Notes under the pieces: generated by a model | The model's database searches: none | What the model was told of the DNA's origin: nothing | The model's input: the letters and a program-made list of their open reading frames with translations, nothing else | In this document: piece after piece, positions 4,141 through 43,272 of the stretch | How the letters are laid out: each line of letters starts with the position of its first letter | Position numbering within the stretch: position 1 is the first letter of the stretch | Translations under genes and position numbers: made by a program | NCBI RefSeq assembly: GCF_002161085.1 | Contig: NZ_NFLU01000015.1 | Span: 1-51,733, forward strand | Source of the DNA: Flavonifractor sp. An112 | Lineage (GTDB): Bacteria > Bacillota > Clostridia > Oscillospirales > Oscillospiraceae | DNA: 51,733 nt | Reading direction: 5' to 3'

Positions 4141-4276
4141 CCCCACCCGATGCTGTGCATCGTGGGGGGACCCCGATTTTATATCTGCATGGGCGAACTG
4201 AATTCGCCCGGCATCAAGGTTTTGCTGGGCAAAACGCTTGAACGGCGTAACCGCCGTCCCGCCTGCGGCGGGGCCC
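4141..4276 (+). repeat. Mosaic palindromic element, copy C (sepF-divIVA gap)
   Basis: In order: a CCCCACCCGATGC...TGGGG hairpin (4141-4165), GGGGACCCC, GATTTTATATCTGC, hairpin GGGCGAACTGAATTCGCCC (4191-4209), hairpin GTTTTGCTGGGCAAAAC (4219-4235), CGCTTGAA, hairpin ACGGCGTAACCGCCGT (4242-4257) and hairpin CCCGCCTGCGGCGGG (4258-4272). The same order of parts recurs at 43146-43272, 31376-31470 and, inverted, 16172-16300. No coding sequence is apparent in it. Confidence 0.8.
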
Positions 4277-15724: not shown

Positions 15725-16168
15725 ATGCGTGCAGTTGTGACCCGCGTGAAGAATGCCTCCGTCACCATCGGCGGCAAGGTGAACGGCGAGATCGGCCAGG
15801 GCTTCCTGGTGCTGCTGGGGGTGGCCCCCGGCGATACCGAGGCCCAGGCCGTCAAGATGGCCGACAAGGTGTGCGGCCTGCGTATCTTTGAGGACGAGAA
15901 CGAGAAGATGAACCTGAATCTGGAGGCAGTGGGGGGCTCCCTGCTGGTGGTGAGCCAGTTCACCCTCTATGCCGACACCAAGTCCCGCCGCCCCGGCTTC
16001 TCCGGGGCCGCCAAGCCGGACATCGCCATCCCCCTGTATGAGAAGTTCATGGCCGAGTGCGCCGGCCGGGGCTTTGAGGTCCAGCACGGCGAATTCGGCG
16101 CCGATATGCAGGTTTATAGTCAGAACGACGGTCCTGTGACCATTCTGCTGGACACCGACCAGATGTAA
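15725..16168 (+). CDS. dtd: D-aminoacyl-tRNA deacylase
   Basis: Protein of 147 aa that hydrolyses D-amino acids (and glycine) mischarged on tRNA. The signature SQFTLYAD and the C-terminal NDGPVTILLDTD motif are present, and the family's usual length (about 145-150 aa) is met. The last 76 nt, from the middle of GEFGADMQ to the stop, occur again at 16301-16376 beyond a palindromic element, so the gene end next to the downstream operon partner has been displaced. Start ATG after AGAAAGGA. It probably forms a unit with the racemase-like gene upstream and the MBL hydrolase downstream. Confidence 0.96.
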   Translation: MRAVVTRVKNASVTIGGKVNGEIGQGFLVLLGVAPGDTEAQAVKMADKVCGLRIFEDENEKMNLNLEAVGGSLLVVSQFTLYADTKSRRPGFSGAAKPDIAIPLYEKFMAECAGRGFEVQHGEFGADMQVYSQNDGPVTILLDTDQM

Positions 16169-16171
16169 CGC

Positions 16172-16300
16172 CGAATTCGCCCCCGCGCTTTGCGCGTCCG
16201 AGCGTTTTGCCAAAGGCAAAACCTCGATGCCGGGCGGATTCACTCCGCCCGAGCAGATCAAAAGATGCGGGGTCCCCGCAGGGCCGTGGCCCTGTGGGGG
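16172..16300 (-). repeat. Mosaic palindromic element, copy A (after dtd)
   Basis: Read on the minus strand it has the same order as the copies at 4141 and 43146: a CAGGGCCACGGCCCTG hairpin, GGGGACCCC, a short spacer with ATC, CTCGGGCGGAGTGAATCCG CCCG hairpin, TTTTGCCTTTGGCAAAA hairpin, CGCTCGGA and CGCGCAAAGCGCG hairpin. It separates two copies of the dtd 3' end. Confidence 0.8.
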
Positions 16301-16376
16301 ATTCGGCGCCGATATGCAGGTTTATTCTCAGAATGACGGTCCTGTGACCATTCTGCTGGACACCGATACCATGTAA
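16301..16376 (+). pseudogene. Stranded duplicate of the dtd 3' end
   Basis: These 76 nt match 16093-16168 at 69 of 76 positions and keep the reading frame to the stop (VYSQNDGPVTILLDTDTM). Differences include a serine AGT/TCT switch and AAC/AAT. The ribosome-binding site of the next gene (AGAAGGGGG) follows directly, which suggests this is the ancestral dtd end and the copy joined to the gene is the newcomer. Confidence 0.85.
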
Positions 16377-31309: not shown

Positions 31310-31356
31310 GAAAAAGAAAGAGACAGGACATATGTCCTGTCTCTTTCTTTTTCTGG
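31307..31356 (+). terminator. 50-bp perfect palindrome terminating tRNA-Gly
   Basis: Two 25-nt arms, CCAGAAAAAGAAAGAGACAG... and its exact complement, with no spacer. The 5' arm begins with the CCA of the tRNA. The A-rich arm pairs with a T-rich arm, giving a terminator in both directions. Confidence 0.8.
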
Positions 31357-31375
31357 ATTCCGTGAGAATTTGAAA

Positions 31376-31470
31376 TGCTCGGCGGAAATAAATTCCGCCT
31401 GCGCCGAGGTTTTGGCCCAAAGGCCAAAACGCTCGAACGGCGCAAAAGCGCCGCCGACCCGAAGGGCCGG
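31376..31470 (+). repeat. Mosaic palindromic element, copy D (after tRNA-Gly)
   Basis: Hairpin GGCGGAAATAAATTCCGCC (31381-31399), TGCGCCGAGG, hairpin TTTTGGCCCAAAGGCCAAAA (31410-31429), CGCTCGAA, hairpin CGGCGCAAAAGCGCCG (31438-31453) and a last GACCCGAAGGGCC. It lacks the first hairpin and the GGGGACCCC link. TGGATTCC occurs on both sides (about 31354 and 31476). Confidence 0.75.
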
Positions 31471-39826: not shown

Positions 39827-39854
39827 GTAGGGGCGGGTGCCCACACCCGCCCGC
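39827..39854 (+). repeat. GTAGGGGC palindromic repeat
   Basis: GTAGGGGCGGGTGCCCACAC followed by CCGCCCGC; the stem is GGGCGGGTG with CACCCGCCC. It is identical over 28 nt to the copy at 39909. Between them, CCGCCGGA...TCCGGCGG forms another stem. Confidence 0.85.
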
Positions 39855-39908
39855 ACCCCCGCCGGAGCCCAACGAAGTGGGTCCGGCGGGGAGGAGAAGG
39901 GGCGCTTC

Positions 39909-39936
39909 GTAGGGGCGGGTGCCCACACCCGCCCGC
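39909..39936 (+). repeat. GTAGGGGC palindromic repeat
   Basis: Second exact copy of the 28-nt repeat at 39827. It ends 28 nt before the ntpA start, so it sits in the leader close to the ribosome-binding site. Confidence 0.85.
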
Positions 39937-43122: not shown

Positions 43123-43149
43123 ATCATGCCGGCCATTAACGTGAGCCCC
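43106..43149 (+). pseudogene. Stranded duplicate of the ntpD ribosome-binding site and 5' end
   Basis: AAGGAGGGATAAATC then ATGCCGGCCATTAACGTGAG, read as MPAINVSP. It corresponds to 43291-43335, where the real ntpD starts GTGCCTGCGATTAACGTGAA (MPAINVNP). Of 24 coding positions 19 match, and three of the five changes are synonymous third-position changes. Because it lies 3 nt after the ntpB stop it is probably the ancestral ntpD start. Translation from it would run into the palindromic element for about 66 codons. Confidence 0.8.
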
Positions 43150-43272
43150 ATGCGGCCAGCCGCATGGGGACCCCTAGATTTCACATCCTCGGGCGGAGTG
43201 AATCCGCCCTGCGGAAATTGCCTGCGGCAATTTTACGGCGCAAAAGCGCCGTCCCCGCGTTGCGGGGCCCCT
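43146..43272 (+). repeat. Mosaic palindromic element, copy B (ntpB-ntpD gap)
   Basis: Hairpin CCCCATGCGGC/GCCGCATGGGG (43146-43169), GGGGACCCC, a spacer with CACATC, hairpin GGGCGGAGTGAATCCGCCC (43191-43209), hairpin AAATTGCCTGCGGCAATTT (43215-43233), hairpin CGGCGCAAAAGCGCCG (43236-43251) and hairpin CCCCGCGTTGCGGGG (43253-43267). It has the same order as copies C, D and A. It interrupts an operon whose other genes mostly overlap or nearly touch. Confidence 0.85.

Follow-up and report, generated by a model that had tools for sequence, protein, structure and literature searches.

Repeated hairpins in mosaic arrangement, often in arrays, are typical of REP and BIME sequences, for which RAYT (TnpA_REP) proteins are known. 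Diversity-generating retroelements feature a second, imperfect copy of a gene 3′ end together with a hairpin after the gene, while the target-site duplications of MITEs are short and of fixed length. Small bacterial repeats and MITEs such as ERIC, Correia, RUP and YPAL have been described as sequences of 100–200 bp with long stem-loops that are repeated in the genome (PMC2229807). In fungal mitochondria, mobile ORFs (Allomyces atp6; Glomus atp6, atp9, cox2 and nad3) are flanked on one side by a new end continuous with the gene and on the other by the original native end, which is displaced downstream; in the account cited, the two ends differ far more in DNA than in protein, the foreign origin of an end is inferred and a homing endonuclease is encoded (PMC3630166).

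A related arrangement was observed in a window of 51,733 nt (the whole stretch of DNA that was analysed) from Flavonifractor sp. An112, the assembly termed G000 below. A forward-strand coding sequence (15725..16168; ORF of 147 aa, with matches in 19 of 20 genomes of the genus) carries the putative name dtd given to it in the original prediction. Its last 76 nt (16093..16168, the near copy, B′, C-terminus DTDQM), in which the coding sequence terminates, recur on the same strand at 16301..16376 (the far copy, B, C-terminus DTDTM). Sequence comparison confirmed 7 differences between the copies (69 of 76 positions identical), both of which end in ATGTAA. The far copy adjoins the native downstream sequence, AAAGAAGGGGGCAG followed by the ATG of the next gene (16396), and continues like the flank of the element-free genomes G010 and G002. 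Serine is encoded by AGT in the near and by TCT in the far copy, as had been reported, but the accompanying statement that the protein is unchanged was incorrect, since the third-last codon encodes Gln in the near copy (DQM) and Thr in the far copy (DTM). The repeat pair is not due to chance, because scanning the 51.7-kb window without gaps, for repeats spaced 60–700 nt, gave just two pairs, namely this one (score-trimmed to 63/66) and one short tandem palindrome.

Two features had escaped the original prediction: a perfect 13-nt inverted repeat flanking the near copy, and three more copies of the element within the window. The left arm of the inverted repeat, GGCGAATTCGGCG (16088..16100, forward strand), is derived from the target, lying inside dtd across the insertion point. 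The right arm, CGCCGAATTCGCC (16169..16181, forward strand; termed IRR), follows immediately 3′ of the near stop and is the exact reverse complement of the target junction. It is followed on the same strand by a GC-rich hairpin (16182..16198), found before the core in many of the copies printed, and by the element core, E (16199..16299), with hairpins at approximately 16199–16226, 16228–16255 and 16274–16299. The structured element between the dtd ends measures about 130 nt, and the 231-nt dtd region folds much better than shuffled sequences (z=−7.1). The core is supported by covariation and scores 112.9 bits with a covariance model, R1, this copy being one of the 16 sequences from which R1 was built. 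Like the fungal mobile ORFs, E sits between a new, joined gene end and the native end, and here too the ends diverge more in DNA than in protein. Unlike them, it has a core of about 100 nt with no room for an endonuclease, occurs at numerous unrelated genes and includes its target's reverse complement. Searches of Rfam gave no match at E≤0.1 in nine loci, so that E lacks the covariance-model match expected of group I and II introns; around the window element, sub-threshold matches were to unrelated families only. No bacterial description of this anatomy was found among the matches listed in literature searches of titles and abstract openings.

A first DNA search of the G000 assembly returned 18 places, and at most of the 17 other than dtd the flanks contained near and far copies of unrelated gene ends. 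Target names used here (groEL, gdhA, pgi, rnc, polC, pheS, aspS, rubrerythrin, trxB, a fusA-like gene and others) were recognized by eye. In the alignment of 16 core copies underlying R1, 96.7 % of cells were paired, with two-sided changes in 16 of 33 pairs, and none of 500 shuffles reached as high a value. G-U pairing at one position in seven of the 16 copies favours an RNA in the sense of the upstream gene. R1 matched all 20 genomes of the genus, many of them incomplete drafts, with 9–58 copies each (28 in G000). Matches were found in 113 of 400 genomes of the family, distributed over 40 of 106 genera, and in four of 391 genomes drawn from the class, three of which belong to the family. E is a structured, non-coding repeat that occupies gene ends in Oscillospiraceae. 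The phages searched contained no match. One copy (L258), lacking a gene-end duplication, lies on a plasmid typed as conjugative (NZ_AP023421.1, Pusillibacter faecalis pMM59_01), which is a possible vehicle between species.

The generality of flanking gene-end repeats, for which the original prediction had proposed a search, was examined in 64 copies, comprising 18 of 28 R1 hits in G000, 26 of 27 loci from other genomes of the genus and 20 of 21 rows from other genera; decayed copies are under-represented in this set because mostly the best-scoring hits were chosen. A near/far duplication was present in 57 of the 64 (57 of 65 if L049 is counted, the excluded dtd locus of G007 with a truncated far end). 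Duplications extended over 34–210 nt (median 74) with a mean identity of 93.6 %, and the gene frame was open in 53 of 57. E resembles small bacterial repeats and MITEs in its size, its stem-loops and its repetition over the genome. It is unlike MITEs in these long, variable duplications, and in having an inverted repeat that matches the target gene and no terminal inverted repeats of its own (on inspection, the 16 aligned cores begin with CAAGCGTT... and finish with ...GTGGGG, which do not form mutual inverted repeats). Seven copies were without such a duplication (L033, L037, L041, L048, L054, L226 and L227); L037 and L048 have shorter or weaker ones (24/26 and 28/36), and L054 lies inside an array. 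For copies outside gene ends or at the extreme gene end (L033, L226, L227 and the window copy at 31335), the duplication is short or absent, which suggests that it may be selectively kept rather than formed at each insertion.

An IRR, again unnoticed in the original prediction, was found between the near copy and the core in 47 of the 57 duplicated copies (score ≥18), compared with 6.6 % when tails were paired to other loci and two of 57 when the upstream arm of the same gene was substituted. Scores were lower in ten copies (L039b, L040, L044, L047, L066, L067, L212, L216, L218 and L229). In 39 of the 42 strongest cases the duplication start lies within the target arm, which mostly begins 2–7 nt upstream of it, and 39 of 50 distinct insertion sites have a G at −2. 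Across orthologues, 632 of 714 IRR cells were paired, with two-sided changes in six of 173 pairs. Where target arms differed between genomes, the IRR paired with the arm of its own genome in 81 of 111 comparisons and with that of the other in 37 of 111. The order of gene body (A), near end in use (B′), IRR, E, far end (B) and native flank is almost certainly shared by many unrelated genes in several genera, with each group of cores tied to one target gene and with patchy presence.

The other three window copies lie on the reverse strand and show how far this layout can vary. The second copy (4141..4240) is downstream of a gene and has no far gene end beyond, at most, a stop codon; a target complement, ATGGCCACC, was recognized by eye. 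The third (43146..43233) is antisense to its target and is bordered on each side by the gene start and ribosome-binding site (28/36, under the threshold score). Its target belongs by eye to a V-ATPase-like operon, the near start being GTG and the far start ATG. The fourth (31335..31435, located with R1) is intergenic, its 3′ hairpin is replaced and no gene-end duplication is present; it adjoins a tRNA-like sequence, with a short repeat, GGAATCCA, on either side. What stays intact, whichever end E hits, is the gene itself. Tandem series were also seen: L025 (Flavonifractor plautii, G005) contains three dtd ends with E between them, the first E being broken by an assembly gap of N, and two other series with periods near 200 bp occur at G001:C1:190684-191203 and G001:C9:96030-96524.

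An independent view of the association was provided by a scan of 449 kb of G000 that made no use of E. Among 18 local direct repeats, seven were gene-end duplications and all seven held E by R1 (weakest score 30 bits, E 1e-4); the other 11 were judged by eye to be tRNA genes, palindromes or repeats inside genes. Second dtd ends, which the original prediction had proposed to seek in element-free relatives, were detected in G000, G006, G005 and G017 only, all of them carriers, among 19 genomes (G015 is cut at a contig end). Both results speak against the view that the gene end merely underwent tandem duplication or slippage and that a hairpin repeat filled in later, a reading that would be in keeping with the near/far direct repeats and tandem arrays but is very improbable.

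Mobility was addressed by comparing occupied with empty orthologous sites. Counterparts of 17 G000 loci were looked for in six genomes to give 15 classified loci, with sites of unclear state left unclassed. All but one of the 15 were occupied in some genomes and empty in others, and the patterns differed by gene. The nearest relative of a core was in the same gene of another genome in 44 of 47 cases, in another gene of another genome in three and in the same genome in none; mean core distance was 0.116 at one and the same locus and 0.323 among different loci of a genome (L033, L041 and L048 are omitted from this clustering, from the occupancy classes and from the element-free-orthologue, shared-state and gene-body comparisons). 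This grouping by target gene rather than by genome indicates that new genes are rarely invaded and that most change is gain or loss at old sites. Vertical descent and loss explain much of the patchiness. E divergence between the same two genomes varied from locus to locus more than expected by chance (p about 0.01 in each of the two genome pairs sharing the most loci), in keeping with transfers made at different times, although unequal rates could also explain it. At pgi, G000 and G002 have near-identical E copies (1/100) with different far ends and context, and the far end of G002 runs into the start of a second element that G006 and G016 carry alone. Gene bodies of E-bearing pairs were 14 % closer than expected (200 permutations, p=0.02), a weak signal.

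Patchy presence, at 14 of the 15 loci, also bears on the idea that E is mainly a selected regulatory RNA of mRNA 3′ ends, affecting stability or termination, in which the duplication and IRR would be by-products kept since the closing stem matters. In sense orientation, 58 of 64 copies have a gene stop no more than 200 nt upstream, compared with 109 of 300 random points, and this position, the covarying structure, whose G-U pairs appear when it is read in the gene's direction, and the tracking of each gene's own changes by its IRR would all suit such a role. It would not, however, account for the duplicated end, and the tandem arrays and the copy antisense to a gene start also count against it; a mainly regulatory function is therefore improbable.

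The original prediction held that the near end was brought in from another allele and that the far end was the original one. For dtd this was examined in 17 of 19 dtd-bearing genomes (G011 and G015 were left out). The G000 gene body is closest to element-free G010 (9/368 differences) and then G002 (14/368). Measured against these two genomes, the far end differs at 7/76 positions from each, whereas the near end differs at 12/76 and 14/76. The near end instead has its closest counterparts in carriers G006 (5/76) and G007 (6/76), with element-free G014 and G016 at 9/76. The proposed clustering with another lineage thus applies to these two carriers and does not extend to carriers G005 (11/76) and G017 (17/76), both more distant by gene body, with which there is no grouping. 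Import of the near end is supported at dtd by these sequence distances, and the fungal pattern, in which a foreign end enters and the native end is pushed downstream, fits the G000 gene.

As a general rule the same claim fails. Over 6,790 sites, near ends showed 904 and far ends 894 differences from element-free orthologues, and the far end was closer in 37 comparisons, the near end in 35, with 38 ties. This equality of distance shows that a foreign near end and a native far end are not the general state. A universal rule of that kind also finds no support at groEL, where the near/far duplication takes in the native terminator, or at rubrerythrin, where near and far ends are alike within genomes (0–6 differences). 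The groEL locus looks like a plain long target duplication, and the fungal pattern is not general for E.

The assertion that both ends diverged largely as coding sequence was upheld: near/far differences comprised 111 synonymous and 23 non-synonymous changes in 45 of the 57 copies (eight gapped and four frameless copies were dropped), where about 23 % synonymous would be expected without constraint. This excess indicates that the far copy was not idle through most of the divergence. At columns where near and far ends differ, both states were seen in other genomes for 91 of 130, with 23 private to the far and 15 to the near end. In 28 of 51 copies, near/far similarity breaks off no more than 4 nt from the near stop. 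Mismatch rises from 5.8 % in the half by the insertion point to 11.7 % toward the stop (51 copies, p=4e-4) and from 4.4 to 9.4 % without the eight gapped copies (43 copies, p=0.007), but fades inside the local alignment (4.2 to 6.1 %, p=0.08). A rise toward the stop would fit an import crossover within the far copy, with the last part replaced.

These comparisons also weigh on an explanation in which a trans-acting transposition enzyme makes a very long, variable target duplication, followed by vertical inheritance, loss through near/far recombination and gene conversion, without transfer between species. The identity of near and far copies through the groEL terminator, the likeness of rubrerythrin ends within genomes, the equal distances to element-free orthologues and the attachment of cores to their loci are all as it would have them. 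A far copy that had been non-coding since an old insertion should nonetheless gain non-synonymous changes, contrary to the ratio of 111 to 23, and the affinity of the near dtd end to two other carriers conflicts with that of the gene body. Nor is the IRR predicted. On balance this explanation is fairly unlikely, although it deserves more weight than a regulatory role.

Enzyme searches were made in the 20 carrier genomes of the genus. Y1_Tnp (PF01797; E≤0.001) was found in ten, including five of the nine most complete, several matches being weak, and not in G005 (99 % complete, 58 copies of E). RVT_1 (E≤0.001) was found in seven, all seven being among the nine genomes at least 90 % complete, and not in G004 (99 % complete, 24 copies). 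At this threshold, therefore, neither a transposase nor a reverse transcriptase was found in every carrier, many of the genomes being incomplete. E is like REP and BIME in its repeated hairpins, mosaic arrangement and arrays, but the target duplication and IRR, together with the lack of a Y1_Tnp match in ten carriers, set it apart from REP/RAYT systems. No long autonomous version with this anatomy was seen among eight repeat pairs spaced 701–8000 nt in 449 kb of G000.

A reverse transcriptase could instead copy the mRNA end into the target, in the manner of retrohoming or of diversity-generating retroelements, with which E loci share an imperfect second gene 3′ end and a hairpin. Snap-back is a habit of some reverse transcriptases, near copies reach the terminator T-run in groEL and the fusA-like gene, and the presence of RVT_1 in seven of the nine most complete genomes would agree. 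Yet all 20 genomes contain E and RVT_1 was found in seven of them, the Rfam searches gave no intron match at the element, and near-to-far changes were not adenine-specific (T>C 65, C>T 52, A>G 37, G>A 31, others fewer). An origin by reverse transcription is accordingly regarded as quite improbable.

A second element family, E2, has no evident sequence likeness to E; its core runs from near CCCGAAGC to GACGACGC, and it was found in 17 of 20 genomes. Gene-end duplication was seen in nine of 16 near-full-length copies examined, and four of the nine have a clear IRR (trxB of G002, trxB of G010 and two repeat units from a single G001 array). At L284 the duplication is not creditable to E2 alone, because a copy of E adjoins it there. 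Instances of E2 are L259, L260, L261, L276 and L263, and it also occurs in the far copy of L040. In the window, two identical 28-nt palindromes (GTAGGGGCGGGTGCCCACACCCGCCCGC) flank a hairpin that is E2-like by eye (39827..39936). The same anatomy in E2 suggests that it probably does not depend on a particular element sequence; a common mechanism would then be indicated.

The best overall explanation, given about an even chance of being correct, is that a rare insertion duplicates the gene end and adds an inverted copy of the target, and that the resulting unit then spreads by homologous recombination. The rare first step would begin with a 3′ end that runs off the near gene end, folds back onto the A/B junction and is extended by 10–20 nt copied there, forming the IRR. 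E would then be joined, and its GGGG end would re-enter the target at the junction, where G is common, leaving B duplicated and the gene whole. The IRR reproduces an unbroken sequence that crosses the insertion point; since only the intact gene or A-B′ contains such a sequence, snap-back on A-B′ is the simplest source. De novo insertion by snap-back is proposed tentatively from this geometry of the IRR, as possible rather than probable. A microhomology-primed form of snap-back at gdhA (L065/L073) was withdrawn, as the L065 far tail resembles a decayed IRR and element start from an array. RNA-guided cutting by the IRR was also set aside, since the near copy keeps an intact target and self-cutting would be expected.

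In the second, common step, the E-bearing allele would pass between strains and species through ordinary homologous recombination. The gene body with B′ would serve as one homology arm, and the far B, conserved as coding sequence and placed just past E where flanks otherwise share little sequence, as the other. The end of the recipient would become the far copy, and the E-linked end of the donor the near copy. Recombination between B′ and B could remove the unit, multiply it into arrays or homogenize it. Spread of this kind is considered somewhat probable; the results for dtd and for synonymous sites argue for it and the mismatch gradient does so less firmly.

It is conceivable, though rather unlikely, that E and E2 exemplify an undescribed mode of mobility, possibly common to unrelated non-coding elements, in which insertion writes the reverse complement of the target, as a guide or a scar, and rebuilds the gene end as a homology arm for cross-species spread without an endonuclease. 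In practice, the far gene end is easily taken for an assembly or frameshift error during annotation, and the IRR is a sequence signature from which the chemistry of insertion could be deduced. If the proposal is true, it accounts for the uneven occurrence of C-terminal variants among housekeeping proteins (groEL, gdhA, pgi, aspS, pheS and others, named by eye), and parasitic DNA could inhabit essential genes without breaking them, crossing between species in conserved coding sequence rather than in variable flanks.
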